From Acidobacteriota bacterium (GTDB lineage: Bacteria > Acidobacteriota > Terriglobia > Acidiferrales > UBA7541), in contig JABCZK010000010.1 in assembly GCA_013289695.1 (NCBI GenBank), positions 62,001 through 126,000 on the forward strand: a stretch of DNA of 64,000 bases, in the 5' to 3' direction. Below the pieces are notes generated by a model. The model saw nothing but the letters and a program-made list of their open reading frames with translations, was not told where the DNA came from and searched no databases. The position numbers and the translations under genes are program-made. Of this stretch, positions 5,708 to 21,949 are shown piece by piece (position 1 is the stretch's first letter; every line of letters starts with the position of its first letter).

Positions 5708-7339
5708 TCAATCCGTAGGATTCCGCGGAAACTTCAAATACGGCAGCCGAACTCCGTCAATCACAATCTGGTCCGCGCGAATATCCGTCGGCGCTTCAAA
5801 TCCCACCGCGCCTCCCGCGGTCACAAAATCGTCCTGATCCACGCCATCTCCGCTGACGCCCAGGCCGCCCACCATCACGCCATTTATATACAGCGGCTCC
5901 GAGCCTGGAAAAAATACCACGCCGCTCTGATTGACCTTGGGCCACGCCGTGCTGGGGACTTGAAATCCCTGCGTGCATGGGTTCCCAGTATCCTGCGTGT
6001 ACAAATTGAAGAACGGACCCACCGGCGAGCCATCAATCCCCGAAGGAAACAAAGGCTGCGCGCCGAAACCGATGGTGCGGTTCGTAACCGCAGTTCCCAG
6101 CGGCACCTGGTTTAGGTCCGCGGTCTGCCGGTTCATGCCGCTGAAGTAAATCACATTGCGCGCTTTCGTCGCGGCCACATCAATGCTGAACACCGTTCCA
6201 TCCGTCATGCGGTACAGGCCGATCAAAGTGCCGTCAAGATCGCTCACCGCGATCGTCATTTTTGCGCGTGCGCCGATGGGCAGGCGAATCTGCGCGCGCG
6301 TCAAATTGGCTGTGGCCACCGCGCTGTTGATGATCTGTGTCACCTGCGCCGTCGTCAGCCCGCCCACGGGCCCATTCGTTGCCGCAATCAACGCGCCTTC
6401 GGGTGGAACACCGGGGCTGCCCACCGGGCCCATGGTAAAAAATGCGGCATCAAAAGTTCCGCTGGTCACGCCGCCGGGCGGTGTCGTCTGATTCACAAAG
6501 GGCAGCGTGATGCCGTTAATGGAAACAATTCCCGGCGCCGGAAATGCGGGGAAGCCGACGCCGTCCGTTGCGGCGCTTGAGCCGCCCATCGCGATCATGC
6601 CCGCTGCCGCGAACGCAACGTATTCCGCCGTGTCCGTATCCGCCGCAACGACACCGATTCCGCCCACTTCTTGCCCGCTCTTGAAAATCGGCACGCCGCC
6701 GGGATTTACTGCTGTCGCTTCGCTATCGTTCAAATCCGCCTTGCCCGTGACGATTCCGTATCCCGGGGACGTCCCGGCGATTGTGGTGGCCGGCGGCACG
6801 ATCGCATTGATACTAGTCGCGAGATTGCAGCCGCGATTGGTATTCTCGATGCCGTACAGCGCGGCGCTCGAGGTGTTCGCAACTCCCGGCGGGAAATGTA
6901 TGCCGCTGATAAATCGCACCGTGCGCGAAGAGAGCGGGGCCTGATCGTTGCTGAAGAAAGCTCCTGTGCGAGCCAGCGCCACCGCCAGATCGGCCGTGGG
7001 AATCATCGCGCCGAAATTCCCCGGCGACGTGGCGGGCGCCGATGGCCCTACGTACACGGCGAGGATGCGTCCCATCCGGTCAACGACGGCGATAGCCATG
7101 GCGTCGGATTGCGCCGCCGTTGCTGCGGCCTCCACCACCATCTGCACGTCCGCTTGCGTCAAGCTTTCCGTCGGGGGCGGGGGATTCGTGGACCCGCCGC
7201 CACCGCCGCCGCCTCCATTTCCACTTCCACCGCCGCCGCAAGCCGCGAGCACCAGCCAGAACGCAAGGCTGAGGCAAACCCGCAGGTTCGCAGGCTTCCA
7301 CAGCCGAACTCGGAACTTCCGAATTTCCGCCGGAATCAT
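5708..7339 (-). CDS. Lipoprotein with two GlcG/HbpS-like (haem-binding) domains
   Basis: A 543-residue exported protein with a clear lipobox: a hydrophobic stretch ending LVLAAC, followed by a Gly-rich linker and PPPP. The mature part holds two copies of the GlcG/HbpS (DUF336) fold. The first begins LTQADVQMVVEAAATAA and contains AIAVVDRMGRILAVY. The second begins LTTAQVTQIINSAVATA and contains IAVSDLDGTLIGLYR. HbpS-type domains bind haem or related ligands in other bacteria; binding here is inferred. It is anchored to a membrane and points away from the cytoplasm. It sits leftward between redox genes, divergent from the outer-membrane barrel gene, so a link with haem or electron transfer is plausible but unproven. 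Confidence 0.8.
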   Translation of the reverse strand: MIPAEIRKFRVRLWKPANLRVCLSLAFWLVLAACGGGGSGNGGGGGGGGSTNPPPPTESLTQADVQMVVEAAATAAQSDAMAIAVVDRMGRILAVYVGPSAPATSPGNFGAMIPTADLAVALARTGAFFSNDQAPLSSRTVRFISGIHFPPGVANTSSAALYGIENTNRGCNLATSINAIVPPATTIAGTSPGYGIVTGKADLNDSEATAVNPGGVPIFKSGQEVGGIGVVAADTDTAEYVAFAAAGMIAMGGSSAATDGVGFPAFPAPGIVSINGITLPFVNQTTPPGGVTSGTFDAAFFTMGPVGSPGVPPEGALIAATNGPVGGLTTAQVTQIINSAVATANLTRAQIRLPIGARAKMTIAVSDLDGTLIGLYRMTDGTVFSIDVAATKARNVIYFSGMNRQTADLNQVPLGTAVTNRTIGFGAQPLFPSGIDGSPVGPFFNLYTQDTGNPCTQGFQVPSTAWPKVNQSGVVFFPGSEPLYINGVMVGGLGVSGDGVDQDDFVTAGGAVGFEAPTDIRADQIVIDGVRLPYLKFPRNPTD

Positions 7340-7551
7340 GAGGTTGGACTATTGGTATCACAGCCGCACATCGTTCTCAATCATTCTGCAAATCAGATGT
7401 GCAATCGTGATGGAATAGTGCAAAAATCGGGAACCAGATTTTGCCTGCGGAGCCGCCCGGAGACATTTACCGGCTCCGGAAAAAACTGTGATCGCGAGAC
7501 GATTCCAATTGTTCCTTGCCGAAAGTCGCCGGACAACCGAGGCCTGACGGA

Positions 7552-9750
7552 ATGCGCGACGCATTCCGCACGTTTTTTTTCCAGCCGGCGCGCCTGTGCT
7601 GGCTCTTGATTTTGCTATGCGCCGCGCCTGCGCCCGGTTCAGCCATGAACCCCGCGATCGCTCCGAGCGCGCTCCAACAATCCGTCGCACAGCAGCGACT
7701 GCCGGGCCAAAGCGCTCCCAAGAAAGCCGCGTTGCAAGGCATCGTGCGCGATTCGAACGGGAACCCGGTCATCGGTGCAACCGTGGTCTTGCGAAACCTC
7801 GCAACGGATCAAAAGTTCGAAACGGTCAGTGGCTCCCAGGGAGTCTTCCGTTTTATTGACGTCGCTCCCGGCGACTATGAGCTAAAAATTGCCGCGACAG
7901 GCTTCCAGGAATTCACCAGTCCCGCCTTACAGCTGCACCCCGGCGACGATCTCGTCCGCGAGGTGACGCTCATCGCCATCCTCTCCATCGCGCCACCGCA
8001 ACCGCAGTTTCCCCAGCTTCCCGCCGGCACCACAAATCCGCCAACAGGAAGTCAGCCCAAGCCTTCGCCCACTGTTCCGCCCAACGCGGTGCAGAACGGC
8101 AACCTCCCGCAGACCGCGCAGCAACCCGCGCCGGAACCGCTGCCTTCTCCCGATCAAGTTTTTCATCCCGAACCCGATCGCTGGTCCATCGCCATGCCCG
8201 ATTGGGATCGCTACGGAATCGGCGGCGAACATCCTTACGTGAAAGGCAGCAAGTGGGATCCGTTCAATCGCAATAAATTGAAGGGCGACGTGCCGATCAT
8301 CGGCAAGCAGACTTTTCTAAATCTGACGGCCACCAGCGACACGTTTTTCGACGGCCGGCGCTTGCCCACGCCCACCGACGTCAGTTCCGCGCGGCCCGGC
8401 AGCAGCGATTTTTTCGGCAAGGGTGACCAGATCTTTCTCGATCAAACTTTTGCGTTTTCCTTCGATCTGTTTCATGGCGACACCTCGTTTCGCCCCGTGG
8501 ACTGGCGCATCCGCATCACGCCGGTGATCAGCTTGAATTATCTGGACGTGCAGGAACTAGGCGTCGTCAACGTGGACGTGACCAAAGGCACCACGCGCCT
8601 GGCTTCGCATCTCGGCTTGCAGGAAGCGTTTGCCGAAGTGAAGCTCCACGATCTCGGCCCGAATTACGATTTCGTGTCCGTGCGCGCCGGCATTCAGGCT
8701 TTCAATAGCGATTTCCGCGGCTTCCTGTTTGTGGAAGAGCAACCCGGCGTGCGTTTCTTCGGCAACCTCGATTCGAATCGGTGGCAATATAATGTCGCGT
8801 ATTTCAATTTTCTGGAGAAAAACACCAACAGTGGGCTGAATTCCATGGCGCTCCGAAATCAACAGGTAATCATAGCCAATGCGTATCGCCAGGATTTTTT
8901 GTTCCAAGGTTACACCGCTCAGCTGAGCGTGCACTACAACAAGGACGATGCCTCGATTCATTACGACGACAACGGGTTTCTGGTGCGCCCTTCTCCCATC
9001 GGCGCCGTTTTTTCCAGCGGCATGATCCGCCCGCACAGCGTTCACGCCGCTTATCTCGGCTGGACCGGCGACGGCCACATCGGCCCGCTGAATTTGACGC
9101 ACGCTTTCTATCAGGCGTTCGGCAACGACAGCTTCAATGCCATCGCGGGCAAGGCCGTCACCATCAATGCGCAAATGGCCGCGCTCGAGCTTTCCTATGA
9201 CAAGGATTGGTTCCGCATCAAAGGTTCCGTCTTTTACGCCTCCGGCTCGGCGAAACCTTCCAGCAGCCGCGCGCGCGGCTTCGATTCGATCGACGATTTT
9301 CCGGAATTTGCCGGCGGAATCTTCAGCTTCTGGAATCGCGAAAGCATCCGCCTGACCGGCTCGGGCGTCGCGCTGAACTCCGGAGATAGCTTGCTGCCCG
9401 ATCTGCGCTCGAATAAAGACGAAGGCCAGGCAAATTTCGTGAATCCCGGAATTTTCCTCGCGAATATCGGAGCCGATGTTGACTTGACGCCGAAACTGCG
9501 CGGATTCGCCAACGTGAATTACCTGCGCTTCGAACGCACCGAGTCGCTCGAACAAATTCTATTTCAGTCGCCGATTCGCCACTCGATTGGAGTGGATTCC
9601 AGTATTGGCGTGCGCTACCGGCCGCCGCTCACCGAAAACATTTCCGTTGCGGCGGGTGCGGCCAGTTTAATTCCGGGCCAGGGTCTAAGGGACATCTACA
9701 CCGGTAAAGTGATGTTTTCGTTTTTCACCGATTTGCGGTTCCAATTTTGA
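7552..9750 (+). CDS. Outer-membrane beta-barrel protein with N-terminal CarboxypepD_reg domain
   Basis: The protein (732 residues) has a signal peptide (hydrophobic [15 protein letters not shown]). A carboxypeptidase-regulatory-like beta-sandwich follows at about residues 65-145, with [20 protein letters not shown] and [16 protein letters not shown] Pro/Gln-rich linker leads to a long region of alternating beta-strands ending in an aromatic residue (TDLRFQF), as outer-membrane proteins do. The barrel has frequent aromatic girdle residues. No TonB box or plug domain was recognised, so it is not an obvious TonB-dependent receptor. It is followed after 25 bp by the ten-haem cytochrome gene, so they are almost certainly one operon. 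The barrel may hold the cytochrome in the outer membrane (inference). The ATG at 7552 was chosen; a TTG at 7516 is in frame. Confidence 0.8.
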
Positions 9751-9775
9751 GCGGACGAAATTGTTGAGGACATTT

Positions 9776-12700
9776 ATGCGCGGCTCGATGGACGACGCCA
9801 CAGCACAGAAACGCTACCTGCAGCGCCGAGTCTTCGTCTTTTTCGTGCTGGCCGGCGCCATCGCCGCCGCGTTGCTGCTCGAAGGCCGCTCGCACGCGCA
9901 GTCACCTTCGCAGCCACAACAGAGCCTGTTCAGGCAGTCCCAATCCGACGTTGATCGCAAAAACGTTGGATGCGTTTCCTGCCACACCAGCACCGACGAG
10001 CCTTCGATGCATCCCACCCGCACGGTTCGTCTGGCCTGCGTGGATTGCCACGGCGGAGACGCCATCGCGATCCTGCCTTCAGGGACTCAGCCTGGCTCAC
10101 CGGAATACGCACAACTCAAGAATCGCGCGCATCCGCAGCCCAACGATCACGCGCTCGCCGGCGCTTCGGGGAACCCGCCGCGCCTCTACACCAAATGGCT
10201 GCGCGAGAATTACGCCTACGTGCGTTTCGTCAATCCCGGCGATTTGCGCGTCGCCGCGGAGACCTGCGGCACTGCCGGATGCCACGCCTCCGAAGTTCTG
10301 AAAGTAAAGACCAGCATGATGACGCACGGAGGAATGTTGTGGGGAGCGGCGCTCTACAATAACGGCTCATTCCCGCTGAAGAACGCGCGCTTCGGAGAAA
10401 GCTATTCCGCCGACGGCCAGCCCCAGGCGCTTCTCACCGTGCCAATGCCCACGCCCGAAGAAACGCGCGCGAAAGGCGTCGTTCCGGAACTCACGCCTCT
10501 GGAACGTTGGGAAATATCGCAACCCGGCAACATCCTGCGCGTATTCGAACGCGGCGGCCAGAAAAAAGGCGAAATCGGCAATCCGGATCGCGAAGAAGAA
10601 TCCGGCCGCCCCGACGACAAGCTCGGCGAACGCGGCTTCGGCACTCTGCTGCGCACCGATCCCGTTTTTCTCGGCCTGCAAAAAACGCGCCTTCTCGATC
10701 CATTGCTTTCGCTGCCTGGCACAAACGACGACCCCGGCGACTATCGCGGCAGCGGCTGCACCGCCTGTCACGTGGTTTACGCCAACGATCGCTCGCCGCA
10801 GCATTCCGGCCCCTACGCTCGCTTCGGCCATCTTGGCGAAAGCGCATCTTCCGATCCCACCATCCCCAAAAATGAATCTGGCCATCCCATTCGCCACAGT
10901 TTCACGCGCGCGATCCCGTCCAGCCAATGCATGATCTGCCATGTCCATCCCGGCACGAACATGGAAACCACTTATTTCGGCTACACCTGGTGGGACAACG
11001 AGGCCGATGGCGCAGCAATGTATCCGCGCCAGCAGCACAATCCGACGGAGGAGGAAAAATATCAGGTCGCGCTGCGTAATCCGGAGGGTGCCGCGGCGCG
11101 CGGCCTTTGGTCCGATCCAAAATTCCTCGAAAAACTGGGCAGCCCGGAGTTCAACGCGCAACTCGACCAGACTCAGTTCGCCGATTTTCACAGCCATGGC
11201 TGGGTTTTTCGCGCCGTTTACAAGCGCGACCGCCAGGGCAACCTGCTCGACGCCGAAAATAAAATTGTCAGCCCCAAAGATCCCGATAAATTCAAGAAAG
11301 CCGTGCACCTTGCGGACATTCACCTCGAGAAGGGCATGCACTGCGTTGACTGCCACTTCGAGCAGGATTCCCATGGCAACGGCAAACTCTACGCCGAGCC
11401 TCGCGCCGCCGTCGAACTCGACTGCGTGGATTGTCACGGCACGATTGACGCCCGCGCGCCGCTAATTTCTTCCGGCGCGGCATCCCCCGCGGGCGGCACA
11501 CACCTCGACGCGCTGCGCACTCCCTGGAACACGCGCCGCTTCGAATTTCGCGACGGCAGATTATTCCAGCGCAGCATGGTGGAACAGGACAAGGAATGGG
11601 AAGTCGTGCAGACCCTGGACACGATCACTCCCGGCAATCCGCACTACAGCGAAAAATCGCGCTGGGCCAAAACCATTCGCACCGACGGAAGATCCTGGGG
11701 CGACGTGCCCGCCGATTCAGCGCAACTCGCGCACGCGAATCGCCGTATGACCTGCTATGCCTGCCACACCTCGTGGACGCCGAATTGTTTTGGCTGCCAT
11801 CTTTCCATGACGGCCAATCAGCGCAAGCCCATGCTGCACAACGAAGGCCTGCTCACGCGCAACTGGACCGCTTACAATTTTCAGGTTCTGCGCGACGACG
11901 GCTTCATGCTCGGTATCGACGGCACCGTCACCGGTCATCGCGTCGCGCCGGCCCGCTCGTCCTGCGCGATTTTGGTCAGCTCGCAAAATCAGAATCGCGA
12001 TTGGATTTACTACATGCAGCAGACCGTTTCCGCCGAAGGACTCAGCGGCACGGCGTTCAGCACTTTCGTTCCGCACACCGTGCGCGCCAAGGAAACCAAG
12101 GCCTGTGACGATTGCCACATTTCCGATCGCAAGGACAATAACGCCTGGATGGCGCAAGTCCTGCTGCAGGGCACAAATCTGCTGAATTTCATGGGACGTT
12201 ATATTTACGTCGCCGATGGCGCGAAGGGATTCGATGCCGTGGCCGTCGCCGAACACGATGAGCCGCCCGCGATCATCGGCAGCTATTTGCAGCGCGTCGC
12301 GTATCCGCAAGATTATCAACAGCACGTGGCGCGCGGCCGCGAATTGCAGGAAGCCTACCACCACGTCGGAAACGTTTTGGACCTGCAGCTGCGCGGCGAA
12401 TATCTCTACGCCGCGCTCGGCAAGGGCGGCTTCCGCGTGTACGACGTGGCCAACGTTGACAACAAGAATTTCTCCGAGCGCACCATCACGGCTCCGGTTT
12501 CTCCGCTGGGCCAGCGCTTTTACGTCAGCACGAAATACGCGACGGCCGTCGCCAGCCCTTCGACGCAAGCGCTCGATCCCGCGCGCGCGCGCAACCCAGT
12601 AAACGAAGAGCAGGCCATTCATCCGCTCTACGCTTACTTATATGTTGCGGACAAATATGAAGGTCTCGTGGTCGTCGGCGATCCGGATCCCAAAAGCAAA

Positions 12701-13582
12701 TCGCCCGGAGTCAGCACGCTGCTCGATGGCGACCCACGCAATAATTTCCTGAAGCGGGCGGTAGCGTTCAATCCGGACGGAATTCTCAACGGCGCGCGCC
12801 GCATCACTATCGCAGGGACGTATGCTTACATGCTCTGCGATCGCGGCCTGGTGGTCGTAGACCTGAATGATCCGCTGAAGCCGCGCGTCACAGCCCAAAT
12901 CGGCGCGCCGGACCTGCACGAGCCGCGCGGAATCGCGATTCAATTTCACTACGCGTTCGTGGTCGATCGCGATGGCCTGAAAGTTCTCGACGTCTCCGCG
13001 CTGGACCATCCGCGCACGGTCGCCAACGCCGCAGTGCCCCTTGCCGCCGCGCGAAATATCTACGTCGCACGCACCTACGCTTACGTTGCGGATGGCAAAG
13101 AGGGGGTGGCGATTATAGACGTCGAAAAGCCGGAACAGCCACGCCTCGATCAATTGTTCACCGCCGATGGCAAAATCATCGACGCGCAGGACATCAAAAT
13201 CGGAATGGTGGACGCGAGCGCGTTCGCCTTTGTCGCCGATGGCCGCAACGGTCTACGCGTGCTGCAAATATTGTCGCCGGAAGATTCGTCCAACTCTTAC
13301 GGCTTCAGTCCGCGCCCCACGCCCAAATTAATCGCCACGTACCGCACCAGCGGTCCGGCGCTCGCCGTTTCGAAGGGCATTGACCGCGATCGCGCCGTGG
13401 ACGAAAGCGGCAATCAAATCGCCGTCTTCGGCCGCCGCGGCGCCCGCCCCTTCAATCGCGAAGAAGCCTCGCGCCTCTTCCTGCACGATGGCACGCCTTA
13501 CACAGTTCCCGACAATCCTCCCGGCCCGCCGCAATCGCCCGCAGCCGGCCAGCGCTCCGGCGCGAAAGCTTTGCCGCGCTAA
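9776..13582 (+). CDS. Ten-haem c-type cytochrome fused to a C-terminal beta-propeller (LVIVD-like repeats)
   Basis: A 1268-residue exported protein. The ATG at 9776 has GAGGA five bases upstream and is followed by a signal or anchor segment ([17 protein letters not shown]). Ten haem sites are spread over the first 780 residues: CVSCH, CVDCH, CGTAGCH (CX4CH), CTACH, CMICH, CVDCH, CVDCH, CYACH, CFGCH and CDDCH. From about residue 810 the sequence changes to repeats of the type [19 protein letters not shown], with related copies such as [18 protein letters not shown] and [17 protein letters not shown]. These repeats are typical of LVIVD-type beta-propellers that sit outside the cytoplasm. The tail is Pro-rich. 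Cotranscription with the barrel gene suggests a transmembrane electron conduit or an outer-surface reductase/oxidase. The substrate is unknown. Confidence 0.88.
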
Positions 13583-13635: not shown

Positions 13636-13683
13636 TGTTGGTGGGCCCGCTAGGATTCGAACCTAGGACCAACGGATTATGAG
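13636..13683 (-). repeat. Distal attachment-site copy: 48-bp partial tRNA duplicate
   Basis: These 48 bases are identical to 21870-21917. They cover a tRNA(CAU) from the anticodon loop through the encoded CCA and three further bases. The 5' half of the tRNA is absent, so this copy cannot be a functional tRNA. Its position and orientation are those expected of the far attachment site of an element integrated into the 3' end of the tRNA gene at 21873-21949. Confidence 0.92.
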
Positions 13684-14232: not shown

Positions 14233-15741
14233 ATGCGCTGCCTCGTGAAGCTCGCCCCGAAAGCCTTTCTAATCTTCTCAATAGTCGTATTCGTGGAATG
14301 TGCGAATGCACAAGTACCTGTGCCCGTCCCGGCGAGCGCGCTGCCAACGATCGAATCGTACCCTCCGTGCATCCCCAGCGCTCAATCCGGCTATAAGGAC
14401 AAGCATTGTCTGGTCACCATAGACAGGCAAGCTCCGATATCGCCGCCAATCTTGATAGTACCCGCTGGGACCACCGTGTTCGTGGAACTGAATAATACGC
14501 GTTGGAACGAGAACGTGACGTGGACGGTGAGCACAACTCACACCACCCCACCGGACGTGGCGGCGGCGGCCGTCAAGAATGCAATTCCTGCCTTACAAAC
14601 GATTGTATTCAACATCACGACCGGTCCAAAGCCAGCCATGATTGCAAATCCGACAGGTATCCTCGCGCTTCAGGATGCAGTCGGCTCGCAACAGGAAGCT
14701 CTGGCACAGCAGCTCAGCAGAATAATCAGGGCTATTAACAATTCTAGCGCCGGCATTACCTGTCTTTCGAGCTACCAAGCACTGCAATTAGACAATACTT
14801 GCTCACAAGCCGGCATGCTGACGCCGTTGACATTTGATCCCGCAAAAACGGCCGTCATCACCAGCGCCAACGCTTCCGCGAATCTACCCGTTCCCGTGCT
14901 AGACATCACCGATATGGACTCGCTCGTCAAAACTTTCTATTTGACCTGTGTAACCTACGTTCCGGGACTGCCTGCCGGCGATCAGGATCTAGCCAGACAA
15001 CTTTGCCGTGACATCGGCGAGAAGGTCTCCAGCAAGGAGTCGTTAATCGATTCGGCTCTTTCGGATATTCAAAAGGCACAGGATGCGCTATTGCAGACTG
15101 TACAGACGCTGCAAGCGTGGCCTGGGGCACCGAGCAAGATCGCGTATCAGTTCACGACGACCAAATATAACAATATGTCGATAGCGATTGCAGGAGTCGA
15201 GATTGTCAGCAAAACGAGTTCGCCGATCGCGACCGTCGCGATCAATCCTCAAGCAAATCGTTGGGTCGTGTCCATAGGCTTGGGGGTTTCAAATCTGACA
15301 TACAACACCTACACGAATGCCCCAATCATCGTGAATGGGCAGCCTGTCTTGAATAGTTCAGGTCAGACGACCACAGTCGTGACGCGGACGAGAACCTCGC
15401 CGTCCTTCATTGCTCCAGAGGGGTTGCTTAGCTATAACTTGATTCCCTCGAAATACACCCATCTTTTCAACAAGTGCCCCAACGGATGCACGATATTGGC
15501 AAGCGGTGGAGTCGGAGCCAACTTGACATCTAAGACCGCCGACTTCGACGTGGGCTTGTCCTTTCAGATCGGCGGTGTCCTGCTGACGCCGGCATTGCAC
15601 TTTGGGCGCGACAGCAGGTTAACGGATGGAGTGGAGGTGGGCCAGATGCTTGGCAGTAGCCCTCCTAATCCATTGCCCACGACGAATGTCTGGGTTCGCA
15701 AGTTTGCGCTGGCGGTTACCTACACAATCCCAACGCCATGA
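14233..15741 (+). CDS. Secreted protein of unknown function, possible small C-terminal beta-barrel
   Basis: I do not recognise this 502-residue protein. The ATG has GGAG five bases upstream and starts a clear signal peptide (MRCLVKLAPKAFLIF, hydrophobic core, cleavage near ANA-QV). The mature N-terminal half has cysteines (YPPC, DKHC, TCLSS, NTCSQ) and a helical stretch around residues 270-310 with several Leu/Gln/Asp repeats. The last 160 residues alternate polar and hydrophobic positions with many Gly and Thr, and end KFALAVTYTIPTP. This could be a small membrane beta-barrel, which is inference. It is the first gene of a rightward set followed by two secreted serine proteases. It may be their substrate, inhibitor or membrane anchor, but no motif proves this. 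Confidence 0.7.
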   Translation: MRCLVKLAPKAFLIFSIVVFVECANAQVPVPVPASALPTIESYPPCIPSAQSGYKDKHCLVTIDRQAPISPPILIVPAGTTVFVELNNTRWNENVTWTVSTTHTTPPDVAAAAVKNAIPALQTIVFNITTGPKPAMIANPTGILALQDAVGSQQEALAQQLSRIIRAINNSSAGITCLSSYQALQLDNTCSQAGMLTPLTFDPAKTAVITSANASANLPVPVLDITDMDSLVKTFYLTCVTYVPGLPAGDQDLARQLCRDIGEKVSSKESLIDSALSDIQKAQDALLQTVQTLQAWPGAPSKIAYQFTTTKYNNMSIAIAGVEIVSKTSSPIATVAINPQANRWVVSIGLGVSNLTYNTYTNAPIIVNGQPVLNSSGQTTTVVTRTRTSPSFIAPEGLLSYNLIPSKYTHLFNKCPNGCTILASGGVGANLTSKTADFDVGLSFQIGGVLLTPALHFGRDSRLTDGVEVGQMLGSSPPNPLPTTNVWVRKFALAVTYTIPTP

Positions 15742-15975
15742 CGGGTTCATTCTAATTCGCTGGTGAAGGGTGAAGCTGCAGTGAGATTTGGTATCAGGTG
15801 CGAGGCACTACGAAAAAGATGGATCAATTCCAAAAGATTGACGAATTCTCAATTCCACTTGATTAAAATACGTCTCAAATAACACTCGGACTTATTCCGT
15901 TGGTTTCGACGCGAGGCCCGCAGTCTTCATCCGAACGATTTCAACGTACGAAACACCTCGAGGAGGTCAAAGAAA

Positions 15976-16848
15976 TTGAGACTTCTGAGTTTTGGCATCC
16001 GTGCACTTCTCAATGTGGGTTTATTAGTTGCGTTGACAACAGGAACAATTCAATGCGTCAGGGGGCAGCGTGTTGCGTCGGTCGATCGGAGTGAGACAAT
16101 AACGTTCTCCGCCGTATCGGACCTCACAAAACCCTCCGGAGTCGAAACGGCGTTGCGACATGCTCGGCTCGCAAATCCAAGCGATTGGCCGGCTTCGTTT
16201 TATTCAGTCCATCCGGGCGGCTCGTGCACCAGCACATTGATTGGCCCCCGCGCTCTTCTGACCGCAGCTCACTGCGCTCCTGAAAGGGCGACTGTTGTTA
16301 TTCGGATGGCTGGGAAAGTATACAAAGGCATTTGCTCACAGTCCGACAGCTACCTTTCAGATCCGTCCGCAGACTGGGCGATCTGTCTAATGGACATCGA
16401 CATTCCAATATTTAGATATGAAACAGTTAATTTGGACGCGTCGCGTATCAAGATTAACACGCAGCTTCTATTGACCGGCTTTGGGTGTACCGAGGCGACA
16501 GGAACCGGGGGAAATGACGGGAACTATCGCATTGGGGAGGCAAACGTAACGAAACTGCCCAGTGGTGTTGATAATGACATTCAAACGACAGGAGACGTCG
16601 CGTTGTGTTTCGGCGACAGCGGTGGCCCTGCATTTTTCTTCTTAGATGCAGGGAAGAAGAGGCGCGTTCAGGTTTCCGTCAACTCAAGGATTAGCCCGGG
16701 GACCAACGGCAATCTGGGCAATACTTCGTACTTATCGAGTTTGTCCACAAACGCGGCACGCACATTTCTGCAGGGATGGGCGGCAAAAAATGCTGCCGAG
16801 ATTTGTGGGGTCAACTTAAGCACCAGTGCCAGTAAGTGTCAGCACTGA
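15976..16848 (+). CDS. Secreted trypsin-like serine protease (family S1)
   Basis: A 290-residue exported endopeptidase with a complete chymotrypsin-type triad: His99 in LLTAAHC, Asp133 in SADWAICLMD, and Ser215 in CFGDSGGPAFF. A signal peptide covers about residues 1-31. Cysteines near His and Ser (GSCTS, AAHC, GIC, FGC, ALCFG, EICG) could form disulfides, fitting a periplasmic or extracellular location. The start is a TTG at 15976 preceded by GAGGAGG about 10 bases away; no better ATG gives a signal peptide. The next gene, a subtilisin-like protease, begins only 19 bp downstream, so the two are very likely cotranscribed. One protease may activate the other, but the sequence does not show this. 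Confidence 0.88.
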   Translation: MRLLSFGIRALLNVGLLVALTTGTIQCVRGQRVASVDRSETITFSAVSDLTKPSGVETALRHARLANPSDWPASFYSVHPGGSCTSTLIGPRALLTAAHCAPERATVVIRMAGKVYKGICSQSDSYLSDPSADWAICLMDIDIPIFRYETVNLDASRIKINTQLLLTGFGCTEATGTGGNDGNYRIGEANVTKLPSGVDNDIQTTGDVALCFGDSGGPAFFFLDAGKKRRVQVSVNSRISPGTNGNLGNTSYLSSLSTNAARTFLQGWAAKNAAEICGVNLSTSASKCQH

Positions 16849-16867
16849 CGGGCGGAAGGCGAGTTGG

Positions 16868-18787
16868 ATGAGGACAAACTTACAGATTTGGATTGCCGCT
16901 GCACTATTGAGCATTTTTACCTCGCCTGCGCCCGCCGCGTCGCAACAGAATCCGGATATTGTTTTGACGACTCCTGAAGGGACACTCGTCAAATTCCGCC
17001 CTACGGGTTCTGACGTGAAGGACAAGAAAGCCTTGGATCTCTTGATGAGAATTTTTGAATCCGAGAGAGTTGATGTCAGTGCGGGAATGACTGTCGATGA
17101 TTTGTCGCGCCAAGTCTGCGGTCGGGTAGACAAGAATTGGATCTCTGCGTTCCTGAAAGAAAACCAGGAGCTTACCTCTGGCACGATAACCGCAGCGACG
17201 AAGGTCAGCCTGCCTCCGTGTCCATTTTGGAAGAGGGCAGGAGAAGCCCGAATTCCACCGAACGGTACGCTGGGTCAGACTGTTGCCTTGCAAATGGGCA
17301 CAGTTGGCGCAAAAACTTTCGATTCGGTAGCAAGGCAAAACGGACGCTCCACAGCATCTCTGAATTCAGTTAAAGCCGGGGATACAATCCAACTCCCCTA
17401 CATGACCGTTTTTACTCCTTATGCGCTGAAAGCTGAATACAGGACAGACCCAACAAGTACAGAGAATGCTCTCCGAAAGGTTCCTGGCTATATCTCATCC
17501 ATACCGCGAAGTGAGTTGTCGCTGATCGCTGCAGCCTCCGCCGGCGATTGTGTTGCTCCAACAAGGGACTGGCCCTTTTCTGCGAGTGGACTCCGCAAGG
17601 TCTTGCAATACAACGCGACAAAGCGGTCGGGTCCTGTTCGAAAAGCTGTGATCGCCGTGGCAGATACAGGTCTAGACAAAAATGATCACCGGGCTTTTCT
17701 AGACAAGATCGTAGGTGCAAACATGGATCCAACAAGATCCGGCTTTCCTGCATTGAACGAAGATTATGATAACAGGAACCACGGCACTCACGTGGCAGGC
17801 TTGGCGCTAGGGGGTCTCGACGATGCTGAATTGGACAGACTAGTAAGGGAACGGATAGCCCTTCGGATCGTAAATATGGTCAAGCGTGAGGTGATCCAAC
17901 CAAAAGTAGGTGATCCGATAACTCGATTCATTATCCCGAACGATTATTTGTTAAGAGCATTTCAGTATATAGGGGAGGATCCTCCGGCACAAATCATCAA
18001 CCTTAGCGTGGAAGAAGACGAAGAAATAGCAGGCTTGGAAGTAGTACTCCGTTCAAATCGTGCCTTAGTTGTTACGGCTGCCGGTAATGATGGGGTTAAT
18101 ATAGATGAAGACGAGAGATACCCTGCAGCTAGCGTCGATCGAGATCTGCTCATGAGCGTGGCGGCCTATGAAGCATCAGGTGGATTAGCGAGCTTTTCTA
18201 ACTGGGGCTCAAAAAACGTGGATCTCGCTGCACCCGGTTGTCAGATAGATTCAATACTCCCCGCCGGTAGGCGAGGGAGGATCAACGGAACATCCCAGGC
18301 CGCACCGCTAGTTTCCTTTACTGCGGCATTGCTCTATTCCGAAGGTCTGCCGCTCGCGGAGATCAAGGACCGAATTTTACTGACTACTGAAATGGATCGC
18401 GCCAAGCTGGGCGATTGTTCCGGAGAAGCTGGACGTTGTGTGAATTCGGAAGGGAGGCTGGACGTCGTTCGAGCACTTAGAGTCCACCAGGATGTCATCG
18501 TGCGAAGGAAATCGGATGGCTCGCAAGTTGAGCTGACAGGAACCATAAAGGACGATTGCATCTACTTGGACGGGCGTTGCTATGAAGTGCGAACCCAGCT
18601 AAAGCGACTCGTTCCTGACGCTCGATCTAATACGGGAACGGTGTGGATCAAGAGCAAGAATAATCGAGTGATGTTTCGCCCATGTATAATTGGTACACGA
18701 GAAATTAATTTTCGAGAAAGTGAGAGTGGACAGTCACAGCGCATACCCCTAAGCGAAATCGTTGATATTGTCCCGGCTGTCTTTTGA
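16868..18787 (+). CDS. Secreted subtilisin-like serine protease (family S8) with unusual N-terminal region
   Basis: A 639-residue exported protease. The signal peptide is residues 1-23 (MRTNLQIWIAAALLSIF). The S8 triad is complete: Asp265 in IAVADTGLD, His304 in NHGTHVAG and Ser475 in NGTSQAAP, with the oxyanion Asn406 in TAAGNDG. Instead of a usual I9 prodomain, residues 30-180 hold two segments that faintly resemble LysM repeats (GMTVDDLSRQVC to VSLPPC, and FDSVARQNGRST to IQLPY); this is a weak call. The catalytic core has a long charged insert (about residues 315-370) between His and the sheet after it. A small beta-rich domain (about 560-639) follows the catalytic domain. The gene is 19 bp behind the trypsin-like protease gene. 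Confidence 0.88.
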   Translation: MRTNLQIWIAAALLSIFTSPAPAASQQNPDIVLTTPEGTLVKFRPTGSDVKDKKALDLLMRIFESERVDVSAGMTVDDLSRQVCGRVDKNWISAFLKENQELTSGTITAATKVSLPPCPFWKRAGEARIPPNGTLGQTVALQMGTVGAKTFDSVARQNGRSTASLNSVKAGDTIQLPYMTVFTPYALKAEYRTDPTSTENALRKVPGYISSIPRSELSLIAAASAGDCVAPTRDWPFSASGLRKVLQYNATKRSGPVRKAVIAVADTGLDKNDHRAFLDKIVGANMDPTRSGFPALNEDYDNRNHGTHVAGLALGGLDDAELDRLVRERIALRIVNMVKREVIQPKVGDPITRFIIPNDYLLRAFQYIGEDPPAQIINLSVEEDEEIAGLEVVLRSNRALVVTAAGNDGVNIDEDERYPAASVDRDLLMSVAAYEASGGLASFSNWGSKNVDLAAPGCQIDSILPAGRRGRINGTSQAAPLVSFTAALLYSEGLPLAEIKDRILLTTEMDRAKLGDCSGEAGRCVNSEGRLDVVRALRVHQDVIVRRKSDGSQVELTGTIKDDCIYLDGRCYEVRTQLKRLVPDARSNTGTVWIKSKNNRVMFRPCIIGTREINFRESESGQSQRIPLSEIVDIVPAVF

Positions 18788-18833: not shown

Positions 18834-19992
18834 TTACCCAGATGTCACAACGGCACTTCCTGTTACCAATCGGAGCATAATATAGATGACATAAAGAAGA
18901 TAATGTGATAGTGTGTCGGGCATGGGAAACCAAGATGCTCGTTCGCTGCCGGCGGAAGCTCAAGAAGATCTTCGCCGGCGGGTCGTGGAGGCAGTTCAGA
19001 AAGGTCTTTCGCAAACTGAGGCGGCTCGAGTCTTCGGGGTAGCTCGCGGTACAGTGAGCCGCTGGATGGGGATGGTGGAACGGGAAGGAGGACGGGCGCT
19101 GAAGGCACAACGGCGAGGACGACCGCCGGTTTCGCGGTTGGCGCCGCATCAAGCAGCTAGGACGGTGCGCCACATTCTGAGCGGTTGCCCGGACCAGTTG
19201 AGCTTGCCGTTTGCGCTGTGGACCAGAGAAGCGGTGCAAGAGTTGCTGTCGCGAAAATTCGCTCTGCAGGTTTCGGTGTGGACGGTGGGACGCTACTTGC
19301 GAGCCTGGGGTCTGACCCCGCAGAAGCCGGTGCGCCGAGCGTACGAACAAAATCCGGCTGCGGTACGGGAATGGCTAGAGGAAGAATATCCAGCGATTCG
19401 CGCACAGGCGCGACAGTTTAAGGCCCAGATTCATTGGCTCGATGAGATGGGTCTGCGTTCGGACCATCAAGCGGGACGATCGTGGGGACGTCGTGGGCAG
19501 ACGCCGGTAGTTTTGGGCACGGGTCAGCGCTTTCGCTGCAACATGATCTCTTCGATCACCAATCGGGGGCGGTTAGCGTTCATGATTTTCCGTCAGCGTT
19601 TCACGGCGCGGGTGTTTCTGAATTTTCTCGGCCGTCTGTTGCGCTTGATGCGCAAGAGCAGGCGGAAAGTGTTTCTGATTGTGGATGGTCACCCGGTACA
19701 CAAGTCGCGATCGGTGAGCCGTTGGTTGGCAGAGCACTGCGAACAAATCCGGATTTTCCACTTGCCGTCTTACAGTCCGGAACTGAATCCGGATGAACTG
19801 CTCAACCAGGATGTGAAGACCAACGCACTGGGCCGTGTCCGTCCCGTGAACGTTCAGGAAATGATGGAAAACGTTCGCTCTTACCTTCGAATCACACAGG
19901 CCAGGCCCCAGTTGGTGAAGAACTACTTTCGTGAACGCCACGTCCAATACGCCGCCCGCTGAAAAGTGTCACCAATTAAGCGCTCGGAGTAA
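18834..19992 (+). mobile_element. IS630-family insertion sequence
   Basis: The element is about 1159 bp, a normal IS630 length, and holds one intact transposase gene. Proposed ends are TTACCC on the left and GGAGTAA on the right, each flanked by a TA dinucleotide, the target duplicated by this family. The terminal inverted repeats are imperfect: TTAC at the tip and CACTT about 25 bases inside on both ends. The transposase assignment is firm; the exact ends are moderate. Confidence 0.65.
18922..19962 (+). CDS. IS630-family transposase
   Basis: A 346-residue transposase. The N-terminal 110 residues are a helix-turn-helix DNA-binding region (SQTEAARVFGVARGTVSRW), followed by a winged-helix-like part (REAVQELLSRKFALQVSVWTV). 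The C-terminal half is a DDE catalytic domain with Asp in HWLDEMG, Asp in FLIVDGHPVHKS and the final acidic residue in PELNPDELL. Length and motifs match IS630 elements, including the Tc1/mariner-like third motif. It is intact and may be active. It is not the enzyme that would have made the tRNA-linked island, because IS630 transposases target TA. A GTG three codons upstream is an alternative start. Confidence 0.92.
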   Translation: MGNQDARSLPAEAQEDLRRRVVEAVQKGLSQTEAARVFGVARGTVSRWMGMVEREGGRALKAQRRGRPPVSRLAPHQAARTVRHILSGCPDQLSLPFALWTREAVQELLSRKFALQVSVWTVGRYLRAWGLTPQKPVRRAYEQNPAAVREWLEEEYPAIRAQARQFKAQIHWLDEMGLRSDHQAGRSWGRRGQTPVVLGTGQRFRCNMISSITNRGRLAFMIFRQRFTARVFLNFLGRLLRLMRKSRRKVFLIVDGHPVHKSRSVSRWLAEHCEQIRIFHLPSYSPELNPDELLNQDVKTNALGRVRPVNVQEMMENVRSYLRITQARPQLVKNYFRERHVQYAAR

Positions 19993-20475: not shown

Positions 20476-21393
20476 CTACTCGAAGAACTCCTCGTCAACT
20501 TTCTTGATGTCTAGCGTCTGTTCGATACGACATCCGACATTGTGGCGAATCATGAGGCGGGCGAGCTGATCTCCATCAATCAGTACAATGCGCTTACTCA
20601 AGTGCTCTGCTGTTTCCTTGGCCGACGGGGAAAAAGTCGAAGTTGTTACAAACAGGCCCTTGGTGGCCTTGTGGCGGTCCAAACTTCCAAAGAAGTCGCG
20701 AATTGCCCCAGGCCCTATGTTGTTGCCAGCTGCATAACGTTTGGCTTGTATGTAAACGCGATCTAGCCCGAGAGCGTCCTGATCGATGACTCCATCAACT
20801 CCATCATCGCCCGATCCGCCAAGAGTGCGACCAGCATCGACTGTTGACCCGCCATAACCCATGCTGAGAAGGAGGTTCACCATTAGGCGTTCGAAGAATT
20901 CTGGCGGGGCCTCGCGGATGCGCTCCATCAGGTCGTGTATTAGTGCGGTTTCGATTTGGCGATAAGCCATCCGCATCGTTTCATCGGGTGTCTGCTTCTG
21001 ATCCTCTGCGGTTGGACCTGGCGTTTCGCTCTCCGATTGGGACGCTGCGGTTGATCGTTCTCGGAATCGACGAAATTCCTCAAACTGCATCAGGAATTTG
21101 ATATCGATCTTTTGAGGCGAAGTCTGGAGAACCGTCTGGCCTCGCGTCGTAATTCGGAAGTAGGCGCGGCGGGTTATTTCCACGAGTTCCGCTTTGTTCA
21201 AATACGACTTCGCCCAATGCACGCGGTTGCTGAAAACCGTCTGCTGGCCAGAAGGGAGCAGCTCACTCCGCTCTTGCGTAGATAGCCCAAGCTTGTTGGC
21301 AAGTTCGTCCACGACCGACCCAATACGAACTTCGCCTTTGGAACAGCTTTCAAGCACCGGCAGCATCAATGATTGATAGTCTGGAATCGCCAC
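20476..21393 (-). CDS. mrr: Mrr-type restriction endonuclease (type IV)
   Basis: A two-domain nuclease of about 305 residues. The N-terminal winged-helix Mrr_N domain begins IPDYQSLMLPVLESC and contains RSELLPSGQQTVFSNRVHWAKSY. A charged, Pro-containing linker leads to the Mrr catalytic domain with a PD-(D/E)xK-type core: FERLMVNLLLSMGYGG, GSGDDGVDGVID, and the signature VYIQAKRY. The Asp of DGVDG and the Gln-Ala-Lys are the expected catalytic residues. Mrr enzymes cleave modified foreign DNA, so this is a defence gene on the island. The GTG start at 21393 puts the Mrr_N domain at the N-terminus. The frame is open further, to 21621, but the extra 76 residues do not resemble the family. Confidence 0.88.
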   Translation of the reverse strand: MAIPDYQSLMLPVLESCSKGEVRIGSVVDELANKLGLSTQERSELLPSGQQTVFSNRVHWAKSYLNKAELVEITRRAYFRITTRGQTVLQTSPQKIDIKFLMQFEEFRRFRERSTAASQSESETPGPTAEDQKQTPDETMRMAYRQIETALIHDLMERIREAPPEFFERLMVNLLLSMGYGGSTVDAGRTLGGSGDDGVDGVIDQDALGLDRVYIQAKRYAAGNNIGPGAIRDFFGSLDRHKATKGLFVTTSTFSPSAKETAEHLSKRIVLIDGDQLARLMIRHNVGCRIEQTLDIKKVDEEFFE

Positions 21394-21869
21394 GTAGTCC
21401 AACCCCCAGTGTGAACCAATTACGATCAAGTTCTTGCTGCCATTCTGCCTCGATGCCAAGATATAGTGCCTGCACTTGCGTTTGTGAACAATTATTTTGT
21501 GGGAACTCCAGGCCTTTGTCTCAACAGTTCTGGTGTGATTGACAGCTGTTGGACTGGAACGCGACTCAGTGCGATGGATTTCCTGATCTCCGGCGATTTG
21601 CGTCCTCAACCAGTCGACCACGGGAACGCGTCAGTTGAAATCTGGCCGGAGCGCGTAATTTCGCGGTCTCGAAGTAGGACGCGCGCACGTTCACGCTTGG
21701 TCACACCCGCGTCACAGGCTCAATTGAAGCCGCGTCGTCGGTTTCATTTCATCGATCGCTTAGCTTTTCGAGCACGGGATCAGAAGCTGCGTCTAGAGTT
21801 ACAAACCCGTTCCCGACGCGGCTTTGCGCGGTTTACCCTACGCGGAGGTGATGCGATGATTTTGAGAGT

Positions 21870-21949
<80 letters not shown>

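Follow-up and report, generated by a model that had tools for sequence, protein, structure and literature searches.

The segment between positions 14,233 and 18,787 of the window (the 64,000-nucleotide stretch of Acidobacteriota bacterium contig JABCZK010000010.1 analyzed here) raises the question of which of its three rightward genes, each encoding a protein with a signal-like N-terminus, belong together and what they might do. The genes encode a secreted-type protein of 502 amino acids, P1 (14233..15741, plus strand, frame open from 14182), an S1A-like trypsin-fold protease of 290 amino acids with a TTG start (15976..16848, plus strand; PF00089, E=1.9e-11) and an S8 protease of 639 amino acids (16868..18787, plus strand; Peptidase_S8 PF00082, E=2.7e-23). 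The original prediction treated all three as one cassette of exported proteins. Its description of the genes was confirmed by our analysis: the coordinates agree, Sec-type signal-like N-termini were recognized by eye on P1, the trypsin and S8, and two serine proteases of unrelated fold lie side by side, 19 bp apart (16849-16867), with complete triads (H99/D133/S215 in the trypsin and D266/H305/S476 in S8). P1 is separated from the trypsin gene by a longer gap of 234 nt. Our results showed that the trypsin and S8 genes are a real conserved two-gene unit, rare and patchy in its distribution and apparently unnamed, and that P1 appears to be its neighbor rather than its component.

A tblastn search of plasmids with the S8 protein gave weak matches, four of which were inspected, all from Rhizobiaceae. 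The four encoded S8 proteins could be aligned with the window S8 over the full N- to C-terminal length. A trypsin-like or serine protease is annotated directly upstream of S8 in three of them (Sinorhizobium americanum, locus L008; Shinella, L010; Rhizobium rhizogenes, L011), and the fourth (L009) has an M12 metallopeptidase downstream. At E<=1e-5, only one relative of the window trypsin was found on plasmids, and it lies beside S8 on R. rhizogenes pColt5.8a (36% identity, E=3e-37). When 84,980 species, represented by one genome each, were scanned with the C-terminal half of S8, 13 loci emerged, 10 of which have a trypsin reading frame directly upstream and three a secreted metzincin beside S8. 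As a guard against circularity, 147 Bradyrhizobium genomes were searched reciprocally with the trypsin profile alone; six of the seven new matches are directly followed by a member of the S8 family, and the seventh is decayed, with an in-frame stop and no S8 gene nearby. Another Hyphomicrobiales genome (G731), located by its S8 gene, also has a trypsin upstream. The trypsin-to-S8 order is thus present in 22 loci, namely the window, L008, L010, L011, L033, ten loci from the S8 scan, six from the trypsin scan and G731, and their hosts are Hyphomicrobiales genomes and plasmids, Brevundimonas, Burkholderiales, Tahibacter, Telmatospirillum and the window's own genome. Viral contigs and phages yielded generic S8 proteases only. 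The arrangement had been called unusual, and it is indeed rare and patchy, but it recurs as a unit and is not a one-off juxtaposition.

The S8 family comprises 28 members in total, 22 with a trypsin and six with a metzincin, and no member was found without a second secreted protease. The partner in the six trypsin-less loci is an M12 protease in L009, L034 and L035, an astacin (PF01400) in L045 and an M10-like protease in L043 and L046, the last three loci being those from the S8 scan. The S8 copy on plasmid pSymA of S. meliloti AK57 (L034, 4500-7030) is broken across several frames; those of L009 and L035 are intact. In L045, the gene downstream of S8 (6768-8330) encodes an astacin-DUF1353 fusion. 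In the 17 pairs that were measured, the intergenic distance between trypsin and S8 ranged from -20 to +31 nt, with starts as chosen by us, and this near-zero spacing or overlap fits coupled translation of the two genes.

One explanation for such a juxtaposition is the chance accumulation of cargo on a mobile island, and unrelated cargo, i.e., an IS630 transposase and an Mrr endonuclease, is present on the island of the window. This explanation is refuted for the pair, and we consider it to have next to no probability, since the same order occurs 22 times and was recovered from either gene, and since the pair differs from controls. Ten generic S8 genes drawn from the same plasmid search served as controls. 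None of the ten has an adjacent trypsin on the same strand; one control locus has a divergent zinc peptidase and another a trypsin several genes away. After near-duplicates were collapsed to 20 S8 members (17 with trypsin and 3 with metzincin), a protease neighbor of any kind was found for 20/20 members vs 1/10 controls, with the zinc peptidase counted as a neighbor (Fisher p = 7e-7), and the comparison of members with controls for a trypsin neighbor alone gave p = 1e-5. Furthermore, members are clearly set apart from other S8 proteases, as they scored >530 bits with the profile built from alignment A6, while the remaining S8 genes of those genomes stayed at <120 bits.

The two genes also appear to have been inherited together. 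The mirror-tree correlation between trypsin and S8 was r = 0.84 (17 pairs) and 0.71 without near-duplicates, and none of 10000 permutations matched it. The unit is sparse even in the groups that carry it. Among 397 Hyphomicrobiales genomes, the S8 family was detected in 3, of which one had not been found before; this is a lower bound because only two candidates were scored per genome. In the order to which Tahibacter belongs (151 genomes), and likewise in that of the Burkholderiales metagenome-assembled genome (150 genomes), it was found in the starting genome only. The trypsin was found in the window's own genome only, among 396 genomes of its phylum. In the gene trees, the window trypsin and S8 are nested within the Pseudomonadota set, and this nesting, together with the low GC (guanine plus cytosine) content and the flanking repeats of the segment described below, points to horizontal arrival of the pair in the window genome.

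P1 behaves differently from the two proteases. It had no match in Pfam, NCBIfam, PADLOC or PHROGs, and its single-sequence AlphaFold model was discarded (predicted local distance difference test score, pLDDT, of 33). Its relatives, two full-length proteins from the same genus (L004, 27% identity) and the same class (L090, ~32%) and a doubtful one (L091), are confined to genomes of the window's phylum, all of which are without the protease pair, and none was found on plasmids. L004 adjoins a type I restriction operon and L090 a helicase-like reading frame. The P1 relative in locus L012 (G075:C28:16000-34000) has a type I restriction operon and further exported or nuclease-like reading frames nearby, in what is possibly a defense island. 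No P1 relative was recognizable in any of the 27 other S8 loci. The idea that P1, trypsin and S8 form one cassette, with P1 being matured or released by the proteases, draws on their shared strand, their signal-like N-termini, the position of P1 just upstream and the frequent presence of an unrelated exported protein beside the pair elsewhere. We consider it improbable, because P1 relatives and the protease pair are found apart and because P1 is unlike the lipoprotein family that recurs near the pair; P1 was tried as a distant member of this Bradyrhizobium family and rejected (hhalign probability 0.2%). That the three genes would never be neighbors elsewhere had been named beforehand as the outcome speaking against the cassette, and the trio was not found again, whereas the trypsin-S8 order recurs in 21 other loci. 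Thus, the three-gene version fails and the two-gene version stands. Because loci with P1 relatives lack the proteases and S8 loci elsewhere lack recognizable P1 relatives, P1 is best regarded as putatively independent cargo of the island; it may be no more than cargo or may act as a local stand-in.

The S8 protein has the triad given above and the oxyanion residue N407, which are conserved in 27 members. In alignment A6 (20 S8 members, 22-28% identity to the window S8), exactly six cysteine columns were shared by 20/20 members: two N-terminal (84 and 118), one before the catalytic domain (228), one inside it (458) and two C-terminal (571 and 606). Cys458 had belonged to the search pattern for L036-L048 and was therefore rechecked on seven later members found without this pattern; it was retained, as were the other cysteines, with the sole exception of C228 in L084. 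The order of the cysteines suggests three disulfides. The structural model of S8 (pLDDT 71) contains two beta-alpha-alpha-beta units (66-180), the S8 fold (239-508) and an all-beta domain (541-635), and a Foldseek comparison of this model with the PDB retrieved subtilisins only. Pfam LysM (PF01476) matched 2/20 members at E<=1, with a best E=0.0013 that is under the cut-off, and the N-terminal repeats can be called LysM-like and no firmer. The catalytic domain and triad are those of other subtilisin-type S8 proteases (deseasin MCP-01, subtilisins, PatA/PatG and mycosin), but the proteins studied here differ from them in the LysM-like N-terminal pair, the C-terminal beta domain, the six-cysteine pattern and the constant protease neighbor. 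To our knowledge, the S8 family is unnamed.

The trypsin-fold partners fall into two groups. Group A, which includes the window protein and most others, is S1A-like with a C-terminal ICG...C motif, and group B (L008, L010, L037 and L038) is Trypsin_2-like. The best solved relatives of the trypsin partner are chymotrypsin C and elastase. Most group A members contain the new-N-terminus motif IVGG, ILGG, IIGG, IDGG or LIGG, or a close variant, and Asp194 is kept in all that were aligned. In known S1A enzymes, Asp194 pairs with the new N-terminus that activation creates. In the members with this motif, the residue before the junction is Glu, Gln, Met or Phe, with Arg in L036 only. Because of these junctions and Asp194, group A trypsins are probably zymogens for which a trypsin-type cut would not be activating. 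Residue 189 of the S1 pocket is Ala in the window and was never Asp in 18 sequences, so these proteins are not of the Arg/Lys-type by this residue. Group A resembles S1A zymogens of the chymotrypsin and elastase type in the I16-like N-terminus of most members, Asp194 and GDSGG, but differs from them in that its junction mostly follows Glu, Gln, Met or Phe rather than Lys or Arg, and in its ICG...C tail, bacterial origin and pairing with S8.

The conserved order, the co-inheritance and the zymogen-type junctions make it reasonable that one protease may process the other, as the original prediction had proposed. We give about even credence to the hypothesis that the pair is a conserved, horizontally spread unit for an exported proteolytic relay in which S8 activates its partner zymogen. 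The constant member would be the S8 protease, whose N-terminal part is LysM-like and probably disulfide-bonded and whose C-terminal domain is of the beta type, and the exchangeable member an exported zymogen protease, usually of the trypsin fold (group A or B) and elsewhere an M12- or M10-type metalloprotease. Propeptide removal is also needed for the activity of astacins. Both genes would probably be co-translated and their products exported by Sec; S8 would most likely cut the propeptide of its partner and free the mature N-terminus, its own N-terminal part might bind the wall, and the activated pair would serve as a weapon or defense by attacking proteins of the envelope or outside the cell rather than food. 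The main argument for S8 as the likely activator is that it is the constant neighbor, whereas the variable neighbor is a zymogen.

Several points weigh against this relay. The trypsin might instead activate S8, or each protease might process itself. The junction of the window trypsin is degenerate (TA|LRHA, without GG), and the canonical N-terminal insertion may therefore not hold for this protein, which weakens the activation argument there. The control S8 genes are few and derived from plasmids only, and parallel trees can equally come from simple co-transfer of two neighbors. In addition, the LysM match lies below the Pfam cut-off and the repeats rest partly on a model with a pLDDT of 71, and no additional neighbor was common to all loci.

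The surroundings of the pair bear on what such a relay, or another activity, might be for. Across the loci the pair was found on conjugative plasmids, on the Mrr island of the window, and near caspases, HipA and PIN families, lipases, lysozyme and tyrosinases. Several loci include other exported hydrolases, i.e., LCAT-like lipases, M6 and M4 proteases, lysozyme and beta-lactamase-like hydrolases; an LCAT-like lipase is near the pair in L041, L042, L087 and L088. These neighbors, together with the full triads of both members, fit the view that the pair simply consists of conserved secreted degradative enzymes, for nutrient release or predation, with no activation step between them. We regard this view as rather unlikely, as it leaves unexplained the constancy of S8, the zymogen-type neighbors from changing clans, the near-overlapping genes and the parallel trees. 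We lean weakly toward an exported relay for antagonism or defense over a role in nutrition.

A lipobox protein lies within one or two genes of the pair in 12 loci (10 by pattern and 2 by eye), and six Bradyrhizobium loci (L036, L041, L042, L044, L087 and L088) have near the pair a lipoprotein family in which the lipid cysteine is followed by I..[KRQ]CE. Tyrosinase genes are near the pair in L008, L011, L033 and L036, as separate genes in L011 and L036. In Sinorhizobium, a 975-amino-acid protein that joins a second S8 protease to a tyrosinase is encoded just upstream of the pair (L008, 484-3411; L033, 1803-4730). Exported HXH proteins of >1000 amino acids, multicopper-oxidase-like by eye, are divergent from the pair in L010 (1-4377) and L038 (1-3530, minus strand), and the long HXH protein of L038 had no match in Pfam. 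A link of phenol oxidases to the mechanism was considered and rejected; tyrosinase or copper-oxidase-like genes recur, yet they are absent from most loci. In a broader scheme, which we think quite unlikely, a wall-binding S8 would be the general activator of a dedicated extracellular zymogen cascade. Each lineage would supply its own zymogen (of the trypsin fold, an astacin or a matrixin), along with lipoproteins, phenol oxidases or lipases as local sensors or effectors, and the cascade, similar to those of animal proteases, would target phage or competitors outside the cytoplasm.

Previously, a group of protease-based conflict systems was described in which System 3 joins a trypsin-like peptidase with a NucA endonuclease and sometimes an S8 protease, mainly in alphaproteobacteria, the two peptidases being coupled within an operon or a single protein, and a proteolytic cascade was proposed for it (Kaur et al. 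2020; PMC7159879). The same study defined Trypco1 and Trypco2 as trypsin-co-occurring domains (PF19631; PMC7159879). The pair might be an exported branch of these systems with a variable lipoprotein or other sensor as third component, a tentative proposal that is compatible with the relay. The coupling of a trypsin to S8, here in 22 pairs, is shared with System 3, and the rare and patchy occurrence on an island and conjugative plasmids, the caspase, HipA and PIN neighbors, Mrr in the window and the lipobox proteins also favor this proposal. A small protein beside a peptidase recalls Trypco, and the lipoprotein of L045, adjacent to the pair, is weakly Trypco2-like (E=0.0097, 17.7 bits vs a curated cut-off of 24.2). 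This likeness is limited to one locus and falls below the cut-off, the partner in L045 is an astacin rather than a trypsin, and Trypco2 (PF19631) above the curated cut-off was found in 0/21 genomes. No neighboring reading frame within ~6 kb on each side had the DRGH motif of NucA by a motif test alone, except for a chance match inside an S8 gene, and NucA did not rank among the 25 commonest Pfam families in a set of 60 neighbors. The pair differs from System 3 in its signal-like N-termini, LysM-like repeats and conserved cysteines, and no EAD or STAND partner was seen. Moreover, exported proteins would be unable to sense intracellular phage as proposed for the systems of Kaur et al.

An S8 protease in a mobile two-gene unit is also known from the anti-phage system IetAS, which consists of an ATPase and an S8 protease; the pair differs from it in having no ATPase partner, and its S8 domain is only marginally similar to that of IetAS (PADLOC E=6e-4, NCBIfam E=0.024). 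A literature search found nothing specific on the exported pair, most subscription papers lying outside its reach.

In the window, the pair lies on an 8.2-kb segment of low GC content bounded by an intact tRNA-Met(CAT) gene (21873..21949, minus strand), the probable integration site, and by a copy of the 3' part of this gene. The 48-nt direct repeats (D1) are exact (100%) and spaced by 8234 nt, the left att-like copy being at 13636..13683 and the right one, which is the 3' part of the tRNA, at 21870..21917. GC content is 50-53% in the protease cassette vs 57-62% in the left flank. The segment has the look of a tRNA-targeted island because of this flanking repeat and its low GC content, in agreement with the mobile island of the original prediction. 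Outside the pair, it contains the IS630-family transposase (18913..19962, plus strand; DDE_3, HTH_33) and, adjoining the tRNA, the Mrr-type (type IV) restriction endonuclease, an island passenger (20476..21621, minus strand; Mrr_N and Mrr_cat, PADLOC mREase_IV 269 bits). No integrase or recombinase was recognized among the reading frames of the island. In the relatives of the genus that were fetched, no empty integration site was found; the left-flank cytochrome is present, and the right flank and the same tRNA are not beside it. This cytochrome, a multiheme protein of 1273 amino acids with LVIVD repeats (9761-13582, plus strand), is represented by orthologs in eight other genomes from the genus, and several of these orthologs contain an in-frame stop codon. 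The source genome is a 4.5-Mb assembly in 64 contigs with 87% completeness.

Altogether, our results describe an apparently unnamed S8 family whose observed loci, some of them on plasmids of plant-associated bacteria, all place it next to another secreted protease. Should the activation step prove true, the pair would be a compact bacterial two-step relay of exported proteases, with an exchangeable second enzyme, that has been spread by mobile DNA.

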